Shown here: positions 53,848-64,000 of the stretch, in pieces
Position numbering within the stretch: position 1 is the stretch's first letter
Layout: every line of letters starts with the position of its first letter
Assembly (NCBI RefSeq): GCF_018687475.1
Contig: NZ_CP061292.1
Span: 868,001-932,000, forward strand
Direction of reading: 5' to 3'
Length of the DNA: 64,000 bases
Origin: Polynucleobacter sp. MWH-UH24A
Lineage (GTDB): Bacteria; Pseudomonadota; Gammaproteobacteria; Burkholderiales; Burkholderiaceae
The notes under the pieces: model-generated
Seen by the model: the letters and a program-made list of their open reading frames with translations, nothing else
The model's database searches: none
What the model was told of the DNA's origin: nothing
Program-made: the position numbers and the translations under genes

Positions 53848-54762
53848 TTATGACCCGATTTCCCTGGCCCACCAGTTTCCCTTAAATTGACCTGCCAGCC
53901 AATCGATTAATTTACTGACCTTGCTGGTCAGAAGTCGTGGTGAGCTATAGACCGCATGAATCTCTTGAGCAGGCATAGTCCAATCCTCGAGGAGGGGTTT
54001 GAGGTGACGACTTTGGACCGAGGTATGGGCCACATACCAAGGTAGGGCAGCAATACCGAGATGTTGTCTGGTGGCTGATAGAAGTGCTGAAAGATTATTG
54101 GAGTAGAGGGGGCCTTGCACCTGAATGGACTTGTTCGAGCCGTCGCGACCTGTAAATTGCCAGCGATGGTCTCCTTGAACCGAGCTGTAAATCAGTGCGG
54201 TGTGACGACTCAAATCGCTTGGAATCGAGGGTGTACCAGCTTGCATGAGGTACTCAGGGGTAGCAACAAGGACCCAGGGATTGAGTCCTAAAAAGCGCGC
54301 ACCCAAACTGGAATCGGATAATCGCCCCATCCGAATGGCGAGGTCAACACCTTCCTCGACCAAATTAATGTAGCGGTCATCTAAATTGAGGCTCACCTGC
54401 AACTGAGGATGCTCTTGCATGAACCGCAGGACCAGTGGGGTTAAAACGCGTCGACCAAAGGCTACCGAGCTACTAATATTGAGTTTGCCCTGCACCTCAG
54501 ATTGCAAGAGACCCGCCAGGTTCTCAGCGTCCTCAACCTCATGAATAATCGTTTTGCACTTCTCGTAATAGATCTTCCCAATTTCAGTGGGGGTTACCCC
54601 ACGGGTACTGCGGTGAAGTAACAGAGACCCCAAGCGCTTTTCCAGGGCAGCGACGTGTTTCGTGGCCGTCGGTTGGGTAATACCCAAACTGCTTGCAGCC
54701 TTACTGAAAGAGCCAGTTTCAACTACCCGTATGAATAAGGAGATGCCTTGAATTCGATCCAT
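53848..54762 (-). CDS. LysR-family regulator, probable controller of the gcl operon
   Basis: The 304-residue protein has an N-terminal winged helix-turn-helix (FIRVVETGSFSKAASSLGITQPTATKHVAALEKRLG) and a periplasmic-binding-like effector domain with the DRYINLVEEGVDLAIRMG and SNNLSALLSATRQHLGIAALP signatures of the CrgA-like subgroup. It is divergent from gcl with 128 bases between the starts, where two dyads lie. The arrangement suggests control of gcl by glyoxylate or a related metabolite, which is inference. Confidence 0.88.
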   Translation of the reverse strand: MDRIQGISLFIRVVETGSFSKAASSLGITQPTATKHVAALEKRLGSLLLHRSTRGVTPTEIGKIYYEKCKTIIHEVEDAENLAGLLQSEVQGKLNISSSVAFGRRVLTPLVLRFMQEHPQLQVSLNLDDRYINLVEEGVDLAIRMGRLSDSSLGARFLGLNPWVLVATPEYLMQAGTPSIPSDLSRHTALIYSSVQGDHRWQFTGRDGSNKSIQVQGPLYSNNLSALLSATRQHLGIAALPWYVAHTSVQSRHLKPLLEDWTMPAQEIHAVYSSPRLLTSKVSKLIDWLAGQFKGNWWAREIGS

Positions 54763-54890: not shown

Positions 54891-56681
54891 ATGGCACTCA
54901 TGAAAGCCGCAATGGCAGCTGTTTTGGTAATGGAAAAAGAGGGTATCACCACGGCATTTGGTGTGCCTGGCGCCGCAATTAATCCGCTCTACGCACAATT
55001 GCGTGAGCGTCAATCAATTACCCATATTTTGGCCCGCCACGTTGAGGGCGCCTCGCACATGGCTGAAGGCTATACCCGTGCTAAGGCTGGCAATATCGGT
55101 GTTTGCATCGGTACGTCTGGCCCCGCTGGTACTGACATGATTACTGGCTTGTATTCAGCAAGCGCTGATTCGATTCCAATCCTCTGTATTACTGGTCAAG
55201 CGCCACGTGCCCGTCTCTATAAAGAAGACTTCCAAGCGGTTGACATCGAGAGCATTGCGAAGCCAGTGACCAAAATGGCAGTGACTGTGCGTGAACCCGG
55301 CTTGGTGCCACGCGTATTTCAGCAAGCGTTTCATGTGATGCGCTCCGGACGTCCTGGCCCAGTGCTTATTGACTTGCCAATCGATGTGCAGTTAGCCGAG
55401 ATCGAGTTTGATATCGATACCTATGAGCCATTGCCCGTTTACAAACCATTTGCTAATAAGAAACAAATTGAGAAGGCAATGGAGATGTTGATGTCGGCCG
55501 AGAAGCCATTGATTGTGGCTGGCGGCGGAATCATTAATGCGGATGCAGCAAATCTTTTGGTGGAGTTCGCTGAAATCACTGGCGTTCCAGTGATTCCTAC
55601 CTTGATGGGTTGGGGCTCGATTCCGGATGACCATCCCTTGATGGCTGGTATGGTTGGCTTGCAAACTTCCCATCGTTATGGCAATGCCACAATGTTGGCT
55701 AGCGACTTTGTCCTAGGAATTGGTAACCGTTGGGCAAATCGTCATACCGGCTCAATCGATGTGTACACCAAAGGCCGTAAGTTTGTGCATGTGGATATTG
55801 AGCCAACACAGATTGGTCGCGTATTCAATCCCGATTACGGCATTGTGTCCGATGCGAAAGCAGCCCTCGAACTCTTTGTTGAGGTAGCGAAAGAGTGGAA
55901 AGCAAAAGGCAAACTCAATAATTACAGCGATTGGGTCTCGCGTTGCCAAGAACGTAAGCGCCTAATGTTGCGCAAAACAAACTTTGACAATGTGCCGATT
56001 AAACCCCAGCGCGTATATCAAGAGATGAACCAAGCATTCAAGCGCGATACGGTTTATGTATCAACGATTGGTCTGTCCCAAATTGCGGGTGGTCAGTTCT
56101 TACATGTTTATGGTGCCCGTCAATGGATTAACTGCGGTCAAGCAGGCCCCTTAGGTTGGACAGTACCCGCTGCACTGGGTGTGTTGGCTGCTGATCCAAC
56201 CCGCACAGTGGTAGGTCTTGCTGGCGATTATGACTTCCAGTTCCTGATTGAGGAGTTAGCGGTCGGTGCTCAGTTCCACCTCCCATTGGTCATGGTGTTG
56301 GTGAACAACAGCTACCTTGGCCTCATCCGCCAAGCTCAGCGCGGCTTTGATATGGATTACTGCGTACAGCTTGCCTTTGACAATATCAACGTACACGATG
56401 ACAACTTAAAAGGCTATGGCGTTGATCACGGTAAAGTAGTTGAGGGCTTGGGTTGCAAAACCTTGCGTGTAACGCAGCCAGGCAAGATTCAGGAGGCCTT
56501 GATTGAAGCGCAGAAGATGGCTAAAGAATACCGCGTACCCGTAGTTGTTGAGATCATTTTGGAGAAGGTGACCAATATCGCAATGGGCACCGAGATCAAT
56601 AACATCAACGAGTTTGAAGATATTGATTGCCGTCATCCCGCTGGTACCGAAGGCTTGGTAACAGCTGGTCTTTTAGAATAA
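54891..56681 (+). CDS. gcl: Glyoxylate carboligase (tartronate-semialdehyde synthase)
   Basis: Gcl joins two glyoxylates to tartronate semialdehyde plus CO2. The 596-residue ThDP enzyme has Val51 in [19 protein letters not shown] where other enzymes of the family have the catalytic Glu, a hallmark of Gcl. [34 protein letters not shown] and [23 protein letters not shown] are also highly typical. The start has AAAAGGAGG, among the strongest ribosome sites in the window. It heads the gcl-hyi-glxR operon and is under a divergent LysR regulator. Confidence 0.97.
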
Positions 56682-56712
56682 GTCTTTTTTTAACTCAACC
56701 AGAGGAATTGGA

Positions 56713-57489
56713 ATGCCAAAGTTTGCTGCAAATTTATCGATGTTGTTTAACGAAGTCCCATTCATGGAGCGCTTTGACAAAGCAGCGGCTTGTGGTTTTA
56801 AGGCAGTCGAATTCCTCTATCCCTATGCCTATGCGGCGAGTGAGATCAAAGCCAAGCTTGATCATAACCAATTGAAATTGGTGTTACACAACATTCCTGC
56901 TGGAGATTGGGATGGTGGTGAGCGGGGTATTGCTTGCTTGCCAGACCGCATTGATGAATATCGTGCAGGGGTAGCGAAGGCTATTGAATACGCAACCGCT
57001 CTTGGGGTTGGTCAGCTGAATTGCCTAGCCGGTAAGGTACCTGCCGGTGTTGACCCGAAAGTATTGCATAGTACCTTTGTGAGTAATTTGAAGTACACCG
57101 CAGGTGAGTTTAAAAAGCATGGCCTCAAGTTATTGATTGAGCCGATTAATACCTTTGATATTCCAGGTTTCTTTCTATCAACCACTGCTCAAGGTATTGC
57201 CATCCTCGATGAAGTGGGGGCCGATAACGCTTTCTTGCAATACGACATCTATCATGCGCAACGCATGGAAGGCGAGTTAGCAAACTCCATCAAAAAATAC
57301 CTAAATCGTATTGGGCATATGCAATTAGCGGATAACCCAGGGCGTAACGAACCTGGGACTGGTGAAATTAACTATGTCTATCTGTTCAAGTTCATTGATC
57401 AATTGGGTTATCAAGGCTGGATCGGCTGCGAATATAAGCCAGCTACCACCACTGAAGCTGGCTTAGGCTGGTTGAAGTCGGTTTCCTAA
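56713..57489 (+). CDS. hyi: Hydroxypyruvate isomerase
   Basis: Hyi interconverts hydroxypyruvate and tartronate semialdehyde. The 258-residue TIM-barrel (AP endonuclease 2-like) protein has MPKFAANLSMLFNEVPFMERF at the start, EPINTFDIPGFFLS with the metal-binding Glu near residue 142, and YDIYHAQRMEGELA near 177. It is 31 bases after gcl and before the reductase gene. Confidence 0.94.
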   Translation: MPKFAANLSMLFNEVPFMERFDKAAACGFKAVEFLYPYAYAASEIKAKLDHNQLKLVLHNIPAGDWDGGERGIACLPDRIDEYRAGVAKAIEYATALGVGQLNCLAGKVPAGVDPKVLHSTFVSNLKYTAGEFKKHGLKLLIEPINTFDIPGFFLSTTAQGIAILDEVGADNAFLQYDIYHAQRMEGELANSIKKYLNRIGHMQLADNPGRNEPGTGEINYVYLFKFIDQLGYQGWIGCEYKPATTTEAGLGWLKSVS

Positions 57490-57525
57490 AATTAATTCAG
57501 TTCGTTATTTTTCAAAGGGATTGCT

Positions 57526-58425
57526 ATGAGTGCAAAGAAATTGGGTTTTGTTGGCTTAGGTATTATGGGTTCTCCGATGGCTGGTCATTTAATCAAGGGC
57601 GGCCATACGATTTATTTAGCAACGCGAAGCCAAGTACCCGAGGAACTCATTAAGGCAGGAGGTATTGCATGCAAGACCCCCGCTGAGGTTGCTCAGCATG
57701 CCGACATCATCTTCACAATGGTTCCTGATACTCCCGATGTTGAAAAAGTTCTCTTTGGTGAGAACGGCATTGCCTCCGGGATAAGCAAAGGCAAGATTGT
57801 GGTGGACATGAGTTCCATCTCACCAATTGCGACCAAAGAGTTTGCTAAAAAGCTTAATGATCTCGGTTGCAATTATGTCGATGCTCCCGTGTCTGGTGGT
57901 CAGGTTGGCGCACAAAACGCCACGCTCTCGATTATGGTTGGAGGAGACGAAGCGGTATTTAATCAAGTCAAACCGCTCTTTGAACTAATGGGTAAAAATA
58001 TCAACCTCGTGGGTGGTAATGGCGCAGGACAAACTGCAAAAGTAGCCAATCAAATTATTGTGGCGCTTAACATTGAGGCGGTTGGTGAGGCTCTCTTATT
58101 TGCTGCTAAAGCAGGCGCCGATCCTGCCAAGGTTCGTCAAGCATTGATGGGCGGCTTTGCGAGTTCAAAGATTTTGGAGGTGCATGGTGAACGCATGGTC
58201 AATCGCACTTTTAATCCAGGCTTTCGGATTGAGTTGCACCAAAAGGATTTGAACTTAGCCCTTAGTAGCGCTAAAGCACTTGGTGTCTCTTTGCCCAATA
58301 CGGCGACTGCCCAAGAGTTATTTAATTCATGCGCGGCTCACGGTGGTAAAGCATGGGATCACTCGGCTATGGTCAAAGCGCTTGAGACCCTGGCGAACTT
58401 TGAGATTGGACAAAAAGCAAACTAA
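57526..58425 (+). CDS. glxR: 2-hydroxy-3-oxopropionate (tartronate semialdehyde) reductase
   Basis: GlxR reduces tartronate semialdehyde to glycerate. The 299-residue beta-hydroxyacid dehydrogenase has the nucleotide motif GFVGLGIMGSPMAGHLIKGGH near residue 8, DAPVSGGQVGAQNATLSIMVGG near 118 and the catalytic Lys in GNGAGQTAKVANQIIV near 170. Its position after gcl and hyi sets the substrate. No glycerate kinase follows, so the next step is encoded elsewhere. Confidence 0.95.
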   Translation: MSAKKLGFVGLGIMGSPMAGHLIKGGHTIYLATRSQVPEELIKAGGIACKTPAEVAQHADIIFTMVPDTPDVEKVLFGENGIASGISKGKIVVDMSSISPIATKEFAKKLNDLGCNYVDAPVSGGQVGAQNATLSIMVGGDEAVFNQVKPLFELMGKNINLVGGNGAGQTAKVANQIIVALNIEAVGEALLFAAKAGADPAKVRQALMGGFASSKILEVHGERMVNRTFNPGFRIELHQKDLNLALSSAKALGVSLPNTATAQELFNSCAAHGGKAWDHSAMVKALETLANFEIGQKAN

Positions 58426-59037: not shown

Positions 59038-59898
59038 TTAATGAGCGGAGTTAGCTCCGGTTCTAAACTGCTCTTCGATGGCCTTGGTAATTTTGGTGCG
59101 AGCATGATTCTTGCGCTCTAGTAGACCTACCCGACGATAAATGGTTTTACGAGGTGGATTGGCAATTACGATGCGTTTGTCTTTGTTCCACTCGACATTG
59201 GCCAGTTTTGGCACCACGGCATAGCCAAAGCCTTGACGAACTAATTCAATAATGGCCTCAACCGAGTTAACCACCATGCTGTTGCGGATCTCCAGACCAT
59301 TGACTCGAATAAACCGATCGACTAGCTCCCCAGTCCAGGTTTTGGGTTCAAACCGAATGAAGGGTAGATTTGATGGATCCTTGCCCTTGGGGTAAATCAA
59401 AATCATCGCTTCCTCATACAACAAAGTCCAGCGAATACTTTTTGGTAACGCGTAGGGAGACTCCGTCACAATCGCCGCATCGAGTAGACCATCGATCACC
59501 TGCTGCAAGAAGTCGCTCGATAGGCCTGTGCTAATTTTTAGTTCAAGGCCAGGATACTCATCTTTCAAATGATCCAGTGTTTTGCCAAATTGCCCCATCA
59601 AACTTGAAACAAGCGCGCCCACGGTGAGTGAGCCCGATAGCCCAGTTCGAAACTGACTTCCAAGGGATTCGTAGCGGGAGAGGATGTCTTGGATGGGTTC
59701 GATTAGAGCGCGGCCCTGATTATTAAGAATCAGTGAGCGCTTATTGCGATCAAATAATGTCACCCCCAATTCAGCCTCTAACTGGGCTAGCTGCTGTCCT
59801 GCTGCAGCAGGGGTTAAGCCAATCTCACGGGCGGCGGCAGCCACGCTACTGTGACGCGTAATGGCAATGAAGTTTTTGAGAACCCGAATACTGGACAT
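59038..59898 (-). CDS. LysR-family regulator divergent from the dehydrogenase/hydro-lyase cassette
   Basis: The 286-residue protein has the LysR helix-turn-helix (FIAITRHSSVAAAAREIGLTPAAAGQQLAQLEAELG) and an effector domain (LTVGALVSSLMGQFGKTLDHLKDEYPGLELKI). The intergenic region to the cassette is 82 bases and contains an inverted repeat. The position strongly suggests that it controls the cassette, with a dicarboxylate as effector; both are inferences. Confidence 0.9.
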   Translation of the reverse strand: MSSIRVLKNFIAITRHSSVAAAAREIGLTPAAAGQQLAQLEAELGVTLFDRNKRSLILNNQGRALIEPIQDILSRYESLGSQFRTGLSGSLTVGALVSSLMGQFGKTLDHLKDEYPGLELKISTGLSSDFLQQVIDGLLDAAIVTESPYALPKSIRWTLLYEEAMILIYPKGKDPSNLPFIRFEPKTWTGELVDRFIRVNGLEIRNSMVVNSVEAIIELVRQGFGYAVVPKLANVEWNKDKRIVIANPPRKTIYRRVGLLERKNHARTKITKAIEEQFRTGANSAH

Positions 59899-59912
59899 GA
59901 ACTTGATCGTAA

Positions 59913-59940
59913 AGTATTTCTTTATCTGAATTAAAATACT
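59913..59940. promoter_or_regulatory. Inverted repeat, candidate LysR operator
   Basis: AGTATTT (59913-59919) and AAATACT (59934-59940) are perfect 7-bp inverted arms around 14 bases. The centre is about 54 bases before the cassette's ATG, the distance expected of a LysR recognition site. The region is very A/T-rich, which weakens the case a little. Confidence 0.55.
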
Positions 59941-59968
59941 ATTCGATTTATTTTTTATTGTCTATCCC

Positions 59969-59974
59969 TATAAT
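59969..59974 (+). promoter_or_regulatory. TATAAT box of the cassette, implying a leaderless transcript
   Basis: TATAAT at 59969-59974 is followed by GTGGAT and the ATG at 59981. There is no -35 consensus at 16-18 bases, consistent with an activator-dependent promoter, and no Shine-Dalgarno sequence. A start 7 bases after the box falls on the ATG. Confidence 0.55.
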
Positions 59975-59980
59975 GTGGAT

Positions 59981-60712
59981 ATGAATGCAAGCATCCTCAA
60001 AGTAAAAGTCTGGCGGGGCACCGATGCCGGTGAGTTCGTCGAGTACGACGTGCCGCGTGCCGCTAATCAAACGGTATTGGACGTAGTGACCTATATCCAG
60101 CGCAAAATTGATCCGACCTTGAGCTATCGCTTTGCCTGCCGTGTTGGAATGTGCGGCTCTTGTGCGATGACCGTCAACGGTAAGGCCCGTTGGACCTGCC
60201 GGACTCATGTGGCCAAAATTGCCGATCAAAATACCCTTGAGATTGCACCCCTGGATAATTTACCCATCATCAAAGATCTGGCAACCGATATGCGCGAGTT
60301 CTTTGACAAAATGAGCAAGGCCGTCGGTTACTTTAAAGGGGACAAGACCCGATTTGATGATTTTGCTCAGGTCAAACCAGATTCAGAGGAACGTCAACTC
60401 GCCAACGCGGGTATTGAATGCATCGGGTGTGGCGTTTGTTATGCATCGTGTGAAGTAGTCTCAGCACGCGATAGTTATTTGGGTCCAGCTGCTCTCAATC
60501 GTGCTTGGACCCTGGTAAACGATGAGCGCGATACTCAGCAATTGGATCGCTTGCGAGCAGTTGCTGGTGATGCAGGCTGTCATTCGTGCCATACGCAAGG
60601 GACTTGTTCAGAGCGCTGCCCCAAACAGATTGAGCCAACCGCAGGAATTGCTGGTTTGAAGAAGATGGTTGGTCGAGCAGCAGTGAGAGGTAGTAAGTGG
60701 GGCAAGCTGTAA
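59981..60712 (+). CDS. SdhB/FrdB-like iron-sulfur subunit
   Basis: The 243-residue protein carries electrons from the flavoprotein to the membrane anchors. FACRVGMCGSCAMTVNGKARWTC (residues 47-69) holds the [2Fe-2S] cysteines, CIGCGVCYASC near residue 147 a [4Fe-4S] set, and CHSCHTQGTCSERCPK near 204 the remaining cluster ligands, with an additional Cys. The start is ATG 59981; a GTG at 59975 would lie directly on the -10 box. Its stop overlaps the next start. Unlike the usual sdhCDAB order, the iron-sulfur gene comes first and the flavoprotein last. Confidence 0.88.
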   Translation: MNASILKVKVWRGTDAGEFVEYDVPRAANQTVLDVVTYIQRKIDPTLSYRFACRVGMCGSCAMTVNGKARWTCRTHVAKIADQNTLEIAPLDNLPIIKDLATDMREFFDKMSKAVGYFKGDKTRFDDFAQVKPDSEERQLANAGIECIGCGVCYASCEVVSARDSYLGPAALNRAWTLVNDERDTQQLDRLRAVAGDAGCHSCHTQGTCSERCPKQIEPTAGIAGLKKMVGRAAVRGSKWGKL

Positions 60713-61062
60713 TGACCAGTAGCGCCATTCTCCAGGCCAAACTTTGGTACTGCCAACGCATCAGTGCGATGGTGCTCACACTGTGTGTCGCAATCCATCT
60801 CATTATCATTTATTACGCCATTCAAGATGGTTTAAGCGCCGGGGAAATCTTGGCACGTACACGCGGCAATCTTGCCTTTGCACTTTTCTACGAGATCTTT
60901 GTTCTAGCCTGTTTTGTTCATGCCCCGATTGGTTTAGCGAATATTCTGCGTGAGAACATCCAAAGTGGGTTTCTGATTCGAGCACTTCCTGTGTTACTTG
61001 CGGCATTCATCCTGATCTTAGGAACAGCCGCGGTCATCGGCGTGGTGTGGGGTACGCCATGA
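60712..61062 (+). CDS. SdhC/FrdC-like membrane anchor subunit 1
   Basis: The 116-residue protein has three membrane helices: ISAMVLTLCVAIHLIIIYYAI, LAFALFYEIFVLACFVHAPIGL and LIRALPVLLAAFILILGTAAVIGV. His near residue 26 and the HAPIGL His are candidate haem or quinone ligands. TAATG overlap with the iron-sulfur gene and ATGA overlap with the next gene show tight coupling. An earlier ATG at 60697 would overlap the iron-sulfur gene more deeply and is less likely. Confidence 0.75.
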   Translation: MTSSAILQAKLWYCQRISAMVLTLCVAIHLIIIYYAIQDGLSAGEILARTRGNLAFALFYEIFVLACFVHAPIGLANILRENIQSGFLIRALPVLLAAFILILGTAAVIGVVWGTP

Positions 61063-61421
61063 GCCAGATAGGGCGTCGACTTGATTTTCGAACGAAGGCG
61101 CATTGGTCTTACTTTGCGTATTACTTGCATCGCGTCTCGGGTCTCTTACTAGCCTGCTTTTTACCCCTTCATTTTTTCCTGCTCTCACGCTCTTTGTATG
61201 GCGAAGCCGAGCTTGGCCGCTATCTGCAATTTACTGATCACCCCATGGTCAAGTTTGGGGAGTGGGGTTTAGTGACCCTGCTAGCCCTTCACCTAATCGG
61301 TGGCACCCGTTTATTGGTCATCGAGTTTGGTATTTGGAAAGGTTTGCGTAAGGCCTGGGTGCAGGTTACATTGATTAGCTCCTTGCTTTGTGGGGCCTTA
61401 TTTTTAATCCTTTCTCGCTAA
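61059..61421 (+). CDS. SdhD/FrdD-like membrane anchor subunit 2
   Basis: The 120-residue protein has SYFAYYLHRVSGLLLACFLPLHFFLLSRSLYG, the HRxSG motif of succinate dehydrogenase cytochrome b subunits, then two further helices (WGLVTLLALHLIGGTRLLVIEFGI and VTLISSLLCGALFLIL). Several His (residues 24, 38, 86) could bind haem. The start is ATG 61059, four bases inside the previous gene. Confidence 0.8.
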   Translation: MSQIGRRLDFRTKAHWSYFAYYLHRVSGLLLACFLPLHFFLLSRSLYGEAELGRYLQFTDHPMVKFGEWGLVTLLALHLIGGTRLLVIEFGIWKGLRKAWVQVTLISSLLCGALFLILSR

Positions 61422-61433
61422 CATCGATCATCT

Positions 61434-62309
61434 ATGGAATTGAACCTGCAACACGTTGAAGACGCATGCAAAGAGCTTTATATCAGGGCCCTGAAATTAC
61501 TACCTGACGATATTAAAGAGGGGATTAACGATCTCAAACGCAAAGAACGTGATGCTCGTGCGCAAGTGGTACTTGGAACCATGGTCACGAATATTGCGGT
61601 GGCTGAACGAGAGGATAACCTGCTCTGTCAAGATACCGGTTTGCCGATCTATAACGTTTGGATTGGTCGCGATGTTCAATTCGATGGAGTTCTCTTAAAG
61701 CAAGCGATTCGAAAGGGGTGCGAGCGAGCCACAACAGAGTATCCACTTCGCTCATCGGTAGTGCATCCGATTACACGCAAGAACAATCACACCTCCTCAG
61801 GCATTGAGATGCCAGCAATTCATCTTGATTTCATGGATAAGCCTGGCGTGATTGAGATTGAAATGATTCCCAAAGGAAGTGGCTCGGAGAATAATTCATT
61901 TTTAAAGATGGCTATACCAGCCGAAGGAATCTTAGGAGTTAAAGCATTTGTGATCGAGAGTGTTGTGAACGCTGGTGGTAAAACCTGCCCACCCACTATT
62001 GTTGGGGTAGGCGTCGGCGGTACATCCGACCAATGCGTCGCACTTGCAAAGCGCGCTGCGACCCGGCCACTTGGTAGCATTTGTAGTGATGCTGAAGGTG
62101 CTAAGTTGGAGAAGGAGTTAAGCGCTGCAGTCAATCAATTAGGAATTGGTCCTCAGGGACTTGGTGGTGATGGTACGGCGTTTGCAGTCCATGTGGAATT
62201 AGCAGCAACGCATATCACCATGAACCCTGTTGCTGTAAATATGCAATGCCATTCGGCACGTCGTGCGCGTGCAACGATTGGATCGCGTGGCATTGAATAC
62301 GGCTTTTAA
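61434..62309 (+). CDS. Class I fumarase / tartrate dehydratase-type hydro-lyase, alpha subunit
   Basis: This is the iron-sulfur half of a heterodimeric hydro-lyase (fumarase class I, L-tartrate dehydratase, mesaconase group). The 291-residue protein has LCQDTGLPIYNVWIG near residue 63, NNHTSSGIEMPAIH near 119, KTCPPTIVGVGVGGTSDQC near 183 and NMQCHSARRARA near 271; three of the Cys ligate the [4Fe-4S] cluster. In E. coli FumA the two halves are fused; here they are split, as in TtdAB. It lies between the membrane anchors and the flavoprotein, so its substrate probably is the flavoprotein's product. Fumarate, mesaconate or tartrate cannot be told apart from sequence. Confidence 0.85.
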   Translation: MELNLQHVEDACKELYIRALKLLPDDIKEGINDLKRKERDARAQVVLGTMVTNIAVAEREDNLLCQDTGLPIYNVWIGRDVQFDGVLLKQAIRKGCERATTEYPLRSSVVHPITRKNNHTSSGIEMPAIHLDFMDKPGVIEIEMIPKGSGSENNSFLKMAIPAEGILGVKAFVIESVVNAGGKTCPPTIVGVGVGGTSDQCVALAKRAATRPLGSICSDAEGAKLEKELSAAVNQLGIGPQGLGGDGTAFAVHVELAATHITMNPVAVNMQCHSARRARATIGSRGIEYGF

Positions 62310-62317
62310 GGACGGTC

Positions 62318-62926
62318 ATGGCACATTACAACCTCGCAACCCCAGTTAGTGAGAGCGATATCCGCAAGTTGAGGATTAACGATACGGTCACCTTGCAACA
62401 AACCTTGTTTGGTATCCGCGATGCGACCCAAATCCATTTATTTGATCGGGGCCGCAAAACTAAATTTGATCTGCAAGGTCATGCCGTGATTCATACGGCA
62501 CCCAATGTTCGCAAAGTACCAGTTAGCCCTGAGTTCCCAGCAGGCTACCAAGCAATTTGCATTGGTACGACCACATCGGATCGGATGGAGCGCTTTACAG
62601 AACCCCTGATGCGAGAATACGGAGTACGCATGATTGTGGGTAAGGGTGGTTTACGGGAGTCATCCGCAAACGCCTTTCAACAATTTGGCGGTGTCTATCT
62701 CGCCATTATTGGTGGTACTGCTGCCCTCGAGACCACTTGGATTGATCAGATTGAGGATGTGGATCTCGATGATCTAAACCCAGAATCACTTTGGAAGTTC
62801 AAGATTAATCAATTTGGTCCTTTATTAGTGGCCATGGATAGCCATGGTGGCAGCATCTATCAAGAAGTGAAGTCTGAGGTTGCAAGTAATAAAGCAGCAG
62901 TACTAAAGAGCTTAGGCATTGTCTAA
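62318..62926 (+). CDS. Class I fumarase / tartrate dehydratase-type hydro-lyase, beta subunit
   Basis: This is the swivelling C-terminal half of the same enzyme. The 202-residue protein has GRKTKFDLQGHAVIHTAPNVRKV near residue 46, AICIGTTTSDRMERFT near 83 and MIVGKGGLRESSANAF near 105, which match FumA C-terminal and TtdB families. It begins 8 bases after the alpha subunit, so a stoichiometric complex is expected. GTTTSDRM is typical of fumarase-type members. Confidence 0.85.
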   Translation: MAHYNLATPVSESDIRKLRINDTVTLQQTLFGIRDATQIHLFDRGRKTKFDLQGHAVIHTAPNVRKVPVSPEFPAGYQAICIGTTTSDRMERFTEPLMREYGVRMIVGKGGLRESSANAFQQFGGVYLAIIGGTAALETTWIDQIEDVDLDDLNPESLWKFKINQFGPLLVAMDSHGGSIYQEVKSEVASNKAAVLKSLGIV

Positions 62927-62941
62927 AGAGAGAAGGGTACT

Positions 62942-64000
62942 ATGACATCGATTGAAACCATAAAGACCGATATCTTGGTTCTTGGCTCCGGTGGGGCGGG
63001 TCTCTTTGCGGCGTTGCATGCGCATCAAGCCAACCCCAACTTGCATATTACGATTGCGGTGAAGGGCCTCCTGGGTAAATGCGGTTGCACCCGCATGGTT
63101 CAAGGTGGTTACAACGTTGCGTTGGCTGAGGGTGATTCGGTTGAGCGTCACTTTATGGATACCATTGAAGGGGGCAAGTGGCTATCCGATCAAGAGCTGG
63201 CTTGGACCTTGGTGACCAAATCGGTTGAACGAATTCATGAACTAGAGAATGAGCTGGGTTGCTTCTTTGATCGCAACCCTGATGGCACGATTCATCAAAA
63301 AGCATTTGCTGGTCAAACCTTTGATCGCACAGTTCACAAGGGCGATCTTACTGGCATCGAAATCATTAATCGCCTAGCCGAGCAAGTATGGGCTCGTGGA
63401 ATCCATCGCCTAGAAGAGCATCGTGCGATTGAGTTAATCAAGAGCGCTGATGGCAAGGCAATCGCGGGCGTATTGATGCTCAATATGCGCACTGGTCAGT
63501 TTGTCATGGTACGTGCCAAGGCAGTATTACTAGGAACCGGTGGCGGCCCCACCATGTACAAATACCACACCCCATCGGGTGATAAAAGCTGTGATGGATT
63601 GGCGATGGCCTTGCGAGCCGGTCTTGTCCTACGTGATATGGAGATGGTGCAGTTCCATCCAACTGGAATGTTAGCTGGACCCGATACGCGCATGACCGGA
63701 ACGGTTCTGGAAGAGGGCTTGCGGGGAGCTGGCGGTTATCTCCTAAATGGTAATCAAGAGCGCTTTATGGGTAACTATGATCCTCGCAACGAGCGTGCTA
63801 CGCGTGACATCGTCTCACGATCGATTTACTCCGAGATGCGCGCTGGTCGAGTCAGTCCAAATGGTGGGGTTTATATTCAGATGCATCACTTAGGCCCCGA
63901 GAATGTACGTAAATTATTTAAAGGAATGGTTGAGCGGTGTGCCGACTCGGGCTTTGATTTAGCGGGCGGACTGGTTGAAGTGGTTCCCACCGCTCACTAC
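62942..64000 (+). CDS. SdhA/FrdA-like flavoprotein, truncated by the window end, with Cys at the FAD-His position
   Basis: The first 353 codons are visible. LVLGSGGAGLFAALHA (residues 13-28) is the FAD-binding fold. MVQFHPTGM and NERATRDIVSRS match catalytic parts of the succinate dehydrogenase / fumarate reductase / aspartate oxidase superfamily, and the window ends in PTAHY, just before the expected MGG. The segment that in SdhA and FrdA contains His-Thr, with the His covalently bound to FAD, reads GCTRMVQGG here; Cys49 replaces the His. FAD is therefore probably non-covalent, as in L-aspartate oxidase. Since NadB is a soluble monomer, the iron-sulfur and anchor genes alongside argue for a quinone-linked complex. 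Confidence 0.88.
   Translation, partial: MTSIETIKTDILVLGSGGAGLFAALHAHQANPNLHITIAVKGLLGKCGCTRMVQGGYNVALAEGDSVERHFMDTIEGGKWLSDQELAWTLVTKSVERIHELENELGCFFDRNPDGTIHQKAFAGQTFDRTVHKGDLTGIEIINRLAEQVWARGIHRLEEHRAIELIKSADGKAIAGVLMLNMRTGQFVMVRAKAVLLGTGGGPTMYKYHTPSGDKSCDGLAMALRAGLVLRDMEMVQFHPTGMLAGPDTRMTGTVLEEGLRGAGGYLLNGNQERFMGNYDPRNERATRDIVSRSIYSEMRAGRVSPNGGVYIQMHHLGPENVRKLFKGMVERCADSGFDLAGGLVEVVPTAHY

Follow-up and report, generated by a model that had tools for sequence, protein, structure and literature searches.

Operon structure and neighboring genes

We analyzed a 64,000-nucleotide window of the Polynucleobacter sp. MWH-UH24A genome (G000:C1:868001-932000; genome of 1.92 Mb, one contig), focusing on an operon at its downstream end that joins the subunits of a complex II-like enzyme to a split class I hydro-lyase. 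On the forward strand, the genes for an iron-sulfur (Fe-S) subunit, two membrane anchors, the alpha and beta subunits of the hydro-lyase and a flavoprotein follow one another; the first two junctions are overlaps of 16 bases each and the other three are gaps of 12, 8 and 15 bases. A LysR-family regulator is encoded divergently, on the reverse strand. This anatomy, described in an earlier note on the same DNA, is borne out by the open reading frames (ORFs), their spacing and the subunit families, which were confirmed in NCBIfam and Pfam.

The Fe-S subunit (59975..60712, forward strand, as are all genes up to the flavoprotein; 245 amino acids (aa), GTG start) is SdhB/FrdB-like, with a score of 194 bits against TIGR00384 (cut-off 88) and a Fer2_3 domain. 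The first membrane anchor (60697..61062) is SdhD-like, exceeding the cut-off of Sdh_cyt (26.1 bits against 25.8) and falling below that of TIGR02968 (32.9 against 41.8), and the second (61047..61421) is an SdhC-like cytochrome b that exceeds the cut-off of TIGR02970 (58.4 against 52.3). Hydro-lyase alpha (61434..62309; PF05681, 293 bits), the proposed sulfoacrylate hydratase, passes the cut-off of the fumarate hydratase model NF004885 (303 against 276). Hydro-lyase beta (62318..62926; PF05683, 101 bits) matches eight NCBIfam models, each below its cut-off, including TIGR00723 (141.3 against 145.15). The window covers the first 353 of the 573 aa of the flavoprotein subunit (62942..64000); the complete gene (L003:6943-8664, equivalent to 62942-64663) extends 663 bases past the window edge. 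Together, the flavoprotein, Fe-S and anchor subunits constitute a set of the complex II superfamily, which includes succinate dehydrogenase (Sdh) and fumarate reductase (Frd).

The divergent regulator (59038..59898, reverse strand; ORF of 286 aa) contains the HTH_1 and LysR_substrate domains and reaches the cut-off of no NCBIfam equivalog among the best 25 families listed. A 7+7 dyad between the LysR and Fe-S genes was rejected as a LysR operator: 131 of 1000 shuffled sequences match it, and the six relatives examined do not conserve it.

The operon is not the housekeeping copy because the genome has a separate sdhC-sdhD-sdhA-sdhB operon, followed by gltA (~994-999 kb), and another class I fumarase, a single chain of 507 aa (~1.29 Mb). 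The note had likewise set the operon apart from housekeeping sdhCDAB, and this distinction holds, with the flavoprotein also lying outside the SdhA rows of the phylogeny below. The outcome named in advance as fatal to that proposal, placement of every subunit in ordinary Sdh together with the absence of a further sdh operon from the genome, was not found, with the tree covering the flavoprotein only.

Just beyond the window edge, the operon is followed by genes for a TctC-type binding protein, an SlcC-like 2-hydroxyacid dehydrogenase, an SlcD/ComC-like dehydrogenase of the Ldh_2 family, SuyA-like and SuyB-like proteins, and a GntR regulator. The second-best solved relative of the SlcD/ComC-like protein is the L-sulfolactate dehydrogenase 2x06, and its NCBIfam score is 212 bits against a cut-off of 500. 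The name of the SuyB-like protein is based on 75% identity to a protein encoded by the C. pinatubonensis HN-2 hps cluster; NCBIfam gave no SuyB model for it, only galactarate dehydratase. By homology, the suyA, suyB and SlcC/SlcD-like genes together form a predicted sulfolactate degradation cluster. Next to the SuyAB and GntR genes are those for a molybdopterin oxidoreductase, a ferredoxin and a DmsC-like anchor (L003:14021-18532), a trio that, judged by Pfam families, resembles the sulfite dehydrogenase SoeABC and possibly encodes a sulfite dehydrogenase. Excerpts of PMC11382572 describe hpsRNOUPsuyAB in strain JMP134 and, as do those of PMC12421959, the sulfolactate degradation pathway comprising slcC, slcD/comC and suyAB.

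A distinct flavoprotein family

The flavoprotein is present in 19 of 200 genomes from the same family (its own genome included) at an identity of at least 67%, with the next match at 37%; one more genome, G094, carries a decayed copy. The named near relatives are from Polynucleobacter. A 52-row tree splits 37 rows of the flavoprotein family, along with three relatives from Rhodococcus and haloarchaea, from 12 SdhA, FrdA-like and NadB rows with support of 100/99, the NadB row being a very long branch. The phylogeny indicates that the flavoprotein forms a clade of its own, outside the SdhA rows.

Two residue replacements distinguish this clade. Glu257, at the position of Thr244 in Escherichia coli FrdA, and Cys49, at the position of the histidine that covalently binds flavin adenine dinucleotide (FAD; FrdA His44), are each invariant across the alignment (111/111 rows, including one repeat of the query). 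Threonine occupies the Thr244 position in 12/12 outgroup rows. At the covalent-FAD position, where the alignment program put a gap in all 12 outgroup rows, reading by eye gives His in the 11 SdhA and FrdA-like rows and Ala in NadB. The alignment to E. coli FrdA also shows that His232, Glu245, Arg287, His355 and Arg390 are retained, with residue numbers counted along the E. coli FrdA chain.

The flavoprotein scores under every NCBIfam cut-off among the best 25 of 29 families: the top match is to the fumarate reductase TfrA (531 bits against 718), and the scores for SdhA (TIGR01816, 353 against 727) and L-aspartate oxidase (nadB, TIGR00551, 353 against 453) also fall below. All of the 120 protein database matches listed, out of 8000, are close relatives. 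Database records name the proteins of this module FAD-binding protein, fumarate reductase or fumarate hydratase.

For the Fe-S, anchor and alpha subunits, conserved residues were counted after dropping rows with stops or low coverage. The Fe-S subunit (59975-60712) has 12 cysteines invariant in 64/64 rows; E. coli SdhB has eleven ligands, and the twelfth cysteine here, Cys202, is invariant in the same 64/64 rows. The first anchor has a candidate haem ligand in His75 (28/28), and the second, with His82 and Arg29 in 40/40 rows, likewise includes a candidate ligand. Hydro-lyase alpha retains Cys65, Cys185 and Cys272 in 59/59 rows. The beta subunit scores 133 bits against 269 for the class I fumarate hydratase model, and the pair stays below the L(+)-tartrate dehydratase cut-offs (TtdA, 176 against 365; TtdB, 145 against 264).

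Linkage with sulfonate genes and variants of the module

An intact SuyB orthologue (at least 73% identity; next match 41%) was detected in 33 of the 200 family genomes. It is present in 19/19 genomes with the flavoprotein versus 14/181 others, with a Fisher value of 5e-18 that is indicative only, the genomes being related. The flavoprotein and SuyB genes share a contig and are no more than 11 kb apart in 17 of these 19 genomes, the exceptions being G002 and G184, where they occupy separate contigs. From genus to genus, the order and orientation of the genes vary. The SuyB of G179 contains stops and was counted as absent. In the decayed cluster of G094 (L055), the regulator, flavoprotein, slcC-like and suyB-like genes are in pieces, and the hydro-lyase pair is still largely readable.

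One genome per species was scanned for further loci; the best 80, to which the list was limited, come, judging by record titles, from Beta-, Alpha- and Gammaproteobacteria. SuyB lies within 37/80 of these, or 24/41 of those with full flanks, and an orthologue (at least 65% identity) is found near the module or elsewhere in 45 of the 49 genomes searched. The full collection comprises 111 loci, at least two of them apparently duplicated; 81 span 15 kb or more. With thresholds that we set ourselves, sulfite or desulfonation genes (sulfite exporter, sulfate exporter, sulfite oxidase, SuyA/SuyB) were found in 69/81 of these longer loci, whereas the housekeeping sdhA neighborhoods of 13 of the 19 module genomes, searched identically, gave 0/13. 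Nine of ten annotated plasmid loci contain such genes in the stretch covered by the PLSDB gene table, which is incomplete; in the stretch of the Sulfitobacter S190 plasmid locus there is none, and in one of the nine, that of Paracoccus seriniphilus, there is only a YeiH-family protein ~8 kb off. The genes that recur beside the module are those for sulfolactate sulfo-lyase, sulfolactate-dehydrogenase-like proteins, sulfite exporters and sulfite oxidases, and in Paracoccus, genes for 2,3-dihydroxypropane-1-sulfonate (DHPS) lie nearby. Thus, the module very probably belongs to organosulfonate catabolism that feeds into sulfolactate.

The module is more than a chance arrangement, as it recurs in other genera. 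Its genes occur in at least three orders, of which the one described in the earlier note, ending with the flavoprotein, is one. A second type of hydro-lyase, with ~35% identity to the first class I type, is encoded in 18/111 loci and follows the flavoprotein where seen; in three second-type alpha subunits that were aligned, the CQDTG motif is replaced with CADTG. In Pseudomonas sp. MPC6, the second-type hydro-lyase is followed by a CoA-acylating methylmalonate semialdehyde dehydrogenase (MMSDH; TIGR01722, 695 bits, cut-off 448.5); exporters (TauE among them) and a sulfite oxidase are present, with no SuyAB annotated in the stretch around the module; an MMSDH-like gene was found in 4/111 loci. 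Some loci also have an amidohydrolase-family gene after the second-type hydro-lyase (L051:6160-6993, by reading; L142:15685-16524).

Downstream of the module in Pseudorhizobium NT-26 are a sulfolactaldehyde (SLA)-reductase-like gene (324 bits, cut-off 348) and a gene of the succinate semialdehyde dehydrogenase (SSADH) family (691, cut-off 646), which together may lead from 3-hydroxypropanesulfonate to 3-sulfopropanoate. Two haloarchaeal records, within the limits of the same gene table, have no anchors or class I hydro-lyase annotated beside the flavoprotein, which adjoins an argininosuccinate-lyase-family protein that exceeds the argH cut-off (323 against 279.5) and stays below that of XcbC (257-260 against 575). 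XcbC1 makes sulfoacrylic acid in coenzyme M synthesis. The NT-26-type and haloarchaeal loci, few as they are, support a C3 substrate.

A thiamine-diphosphate (TPP) enzyme recurs near the flavoprotein in 33/111 loci (e.g., L039:13702-15339, L138:11684-13309, L140:7329-8930). Its identification as Xsc was ruled out for these three examples, with scores of 192, 162 and 156 against 676 bits, all three being under every NCBIfam cut-off listed.

Just upstream of the module, at window positions 54891-58425, lies a gene for glyoxylate carboligase (above the NCBIfam cut-off), followed by genes that, by reading, are hydroxypyruvate isomerase-like and tartronate semialdehyde reductase-like. This set is also present in L037 and is not beside the module in the other loci compared. 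Another LysR-family ORF (53848-54762, reverse strand; family by reading) is divergent from glyoxylate carboligase.

Proposed pathway and alternative explanations

From the observed gene order, linkage and residue changes, we infer a series of catalytic steps in which the operon probably encodes a quinone-linked organosulfonate dehydrogenase with a partner hydratase, repeating the succinate-fumarate-malate chemistry on a sulfonate. The best candidate substrate, on balance, is 3-sulfopropanoate, which is succinate with a sulfonate replacing one carboxylate; 3-sulfoacrylate and 3-sulfolactate are the corresponding twins of fumarate and malate. The TctC-type binding protein would help take up the sulfonate; the complex II-like enzyme (flavoprotein, Fe-S subunit and two anchors) would convert 3-sulfopropanoate to 3-sulfoacrylate, reducing quinone; and the split class I hydro-lyase would add water to form 3-sulfolactate. 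The SlcC- and SlcD-like dehydrogenases, homologues of known pathway enzymes, would then interconvert the sulfolactate enantiomers through sulfopyruvate, SuyAB, also of the known pathway, would cleave (R)-sulfolactate to pyruvate and sulfite, and the sulfite would be exported or oxidized. 3-Sulfopropanoate fits because the product, sulfolactate, enters the SlcC/SlcD/SuyAB steps without a further enzyme. The same chemistry appears in a thesis cited in PMC11489063, according to which Roseovarius nubinhibens breaks down homotaurine via 3-sulfopropionate, sulfoacrylate and sulfolactate.

The general proposal of the earlier note, a dedicated module pairing a quinone-linked flavoprotein complex with a hydratase, is supported. 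By contrast, its suggested substrates, succinate and methylsuccinate, are not; sulfolactate and sulfite genes recur beside the module instead. As for a neighboring CoA-transferase, which the note proposed to look for, none is annotated in the ten annotated plasmid loci, the only place where one was sought.

Several observations weigh against the organosulfonate pathway as proposed. The Thr-to-Glu change places an acid near a bound anion and may argue for another substrate, and FrdA mutants that lack the covalent-FAD histidine lose succinate oxidation. The subunits other than the flavoprotein are, as judged by model scores, less distinct from known families, with hydro-lyase alpha passing the fumarate hydratase cut-off and the second anchor that of Sdh cytochrome b. 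The Fisher value is inflated because the genomes are clearly related; four of the 49 genomes searched (those of L103, L108, L110 and L128) have no SuyB orthologue, that of G229 carries a stop, and 12/81 loci of at least 15 kb lack sulfite and desulfonation genes in the stretch examined. Finally, an SSADH gene is near the module in 1/111 loci and an SLA-reductase-like gene in 2/111, and the TPP enzyme has no role in the proposed scheme.

Among the alternatives, the strongest, although unlikely, assigns the same sulfonate role to a different compound: sulfosuccinate would be oxidized to sulfofumarate and hydrated to sulfomalate, which, by oxidation and decarboxylation, would yield sulfopyruvate and then sulfolactate. 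Such a route would also feed the SlcC, SlcD and SuyAB genes, and sulfosuccinate, a C4 dicarboxylate, is nearer to the usual substrates of the family; however, no dedicated gene is evident for the required oxidation and decarboxylation, the C3 context in NT-26 and the DHPS genes of Paracoccus favor C3 sulfonates, and the open-licence papers listed for sulfosuccinate showed no catabolic genes. Because of the extra steps, we keep it only as a rival. There is only a slim chance that the module runs in reverse, as an electron sink akin to fumarate respiration, in which sulfolactate would be dehydrated to sulfoacrylate and reduced by quinol to 3-sulfopropanoate. The missing covalent-FAD histidine, the loss of which favors reduction in FrdA mutants, and TfrA, a fumarate reductase, as the top NCBIfam model, albeit below its cut-off, fit this direction, but a sulfolactate sink needs no SuyB, which is present in 19/19 and 45/49 genomes, and sulfite exporters and oxidases accompany the module. 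Equally improbable is an ordinary inducible module for C4 dicarboxylates (succinate, methylsuccinate, tartrate) that merely lies near sulfonate genes. The subunit families, the two ordinary cut-offs exceeded and the 12/81 loci without nearby sulfonate genes are compatible with it, but the linkage holds across genera despite differing gene orders, with 0/13 among the housekeeping controls, and the active-site changes are invariant; because of this neighborhood and residue evidence, plain dicarboxylates were set aside and kept as a rival. For the second-type loci of relatives, as distinct from the operon of the window, hydration at the sulfonate carbon, giving malonate semialdehyde and sulfite directly and making SuyAB dispensable, would suit the gene content of Pseudomonas sp. 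MPC6, the four loci with an MMSDH-like gene and the CADTG motif, but is very improbable, given that the second-type loci L111, L123, L129 and L131 sit in genomes with a SuyB orthologue and that the chemistry is conjecture.

Returning to the 3-sulfopropanoate pathway, we consider it slightly better than an even bet that it extends to a 'sulfo-Krebs' module, in which a re-tooled complex II feeds organosulfonate electrons directly into the quinone pool and, paired with any of three different hydratases (the two class I hydro-lyase types or the haloarchaeal argininosuccinate-lyase-family protein), opens 3-sulfopropanoate to mineralization in Proteobacteria, Rhodococcus and haloarchaea. In the excerpts of a 2025 proteomics paper (PMC12421959), a cluster is set aside as possibly related to the Krebs cycle; it resembles the Paracoccus versutus pTAV3 locus and may be the same kind of module. 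If so, its expression on a sulfonate with no known need for 3-sulfopropanoate implies that the inducer could be sulfolactate.

According to the excerpts of PMC11489063 (2024), bacterial degradation of 3-sulfopropionate was previously unreported apart from the thesis, and its use by Bilophila wadsworthia is reported there with the pathway left open. The open-licence library searched yielded no paper assigning genes to this route and, in line with the earlier note, no functional description of the module. For an oxidative 3-sulfopropionate route, the module offers candidate genes in microbes of fresh water, soil, the sea and salt lakes. If the proposal is correct, this would be a complex II homologue with an organosulfonate substrate and two defined residue changes, and the annotations FAD-binding protein, fumarate reductase and fumarate hydratase would need correcting.

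Compared with known systems, the module shares with complex II the flavoprotein fold family, the Fe-S subunit, two small anchors and the active-site His, Glu and Arg, but differs in its gene order and neighbors and in a flavoprotein that forms its own clade, has Glu in place of Thr244 and Cys in place of the covalent-FAD His, and scores under all curated cut-offs listed. With class I fumarase and TtdAB, it shares the alpha and beta families, the three cluster cysteines and an alpha subunit above the fumarate hydratase cut-off; unlike in those enzymes, the beta subunit reaches no cut-off and the pair is associated with a flavoprotein complex and with sulfolactate genes. Homologues of the sulfolactate degradation genes (slcC, slcD/comC, suyAB) are found downstream of this operon and again in relatives, whereas the pathway, as described in the excerpts of PMC11382572 and PMC12421959, includes neither a complex II nor a hydro-lyase; the module would feed it by a new route. 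The 3-sulfopropionate breakdown by R. nubinhibens (Mayer thesis), to which the excerpts of PMC11489063 devote one sentence without naming genes, has the same proposed chemistry as the module.

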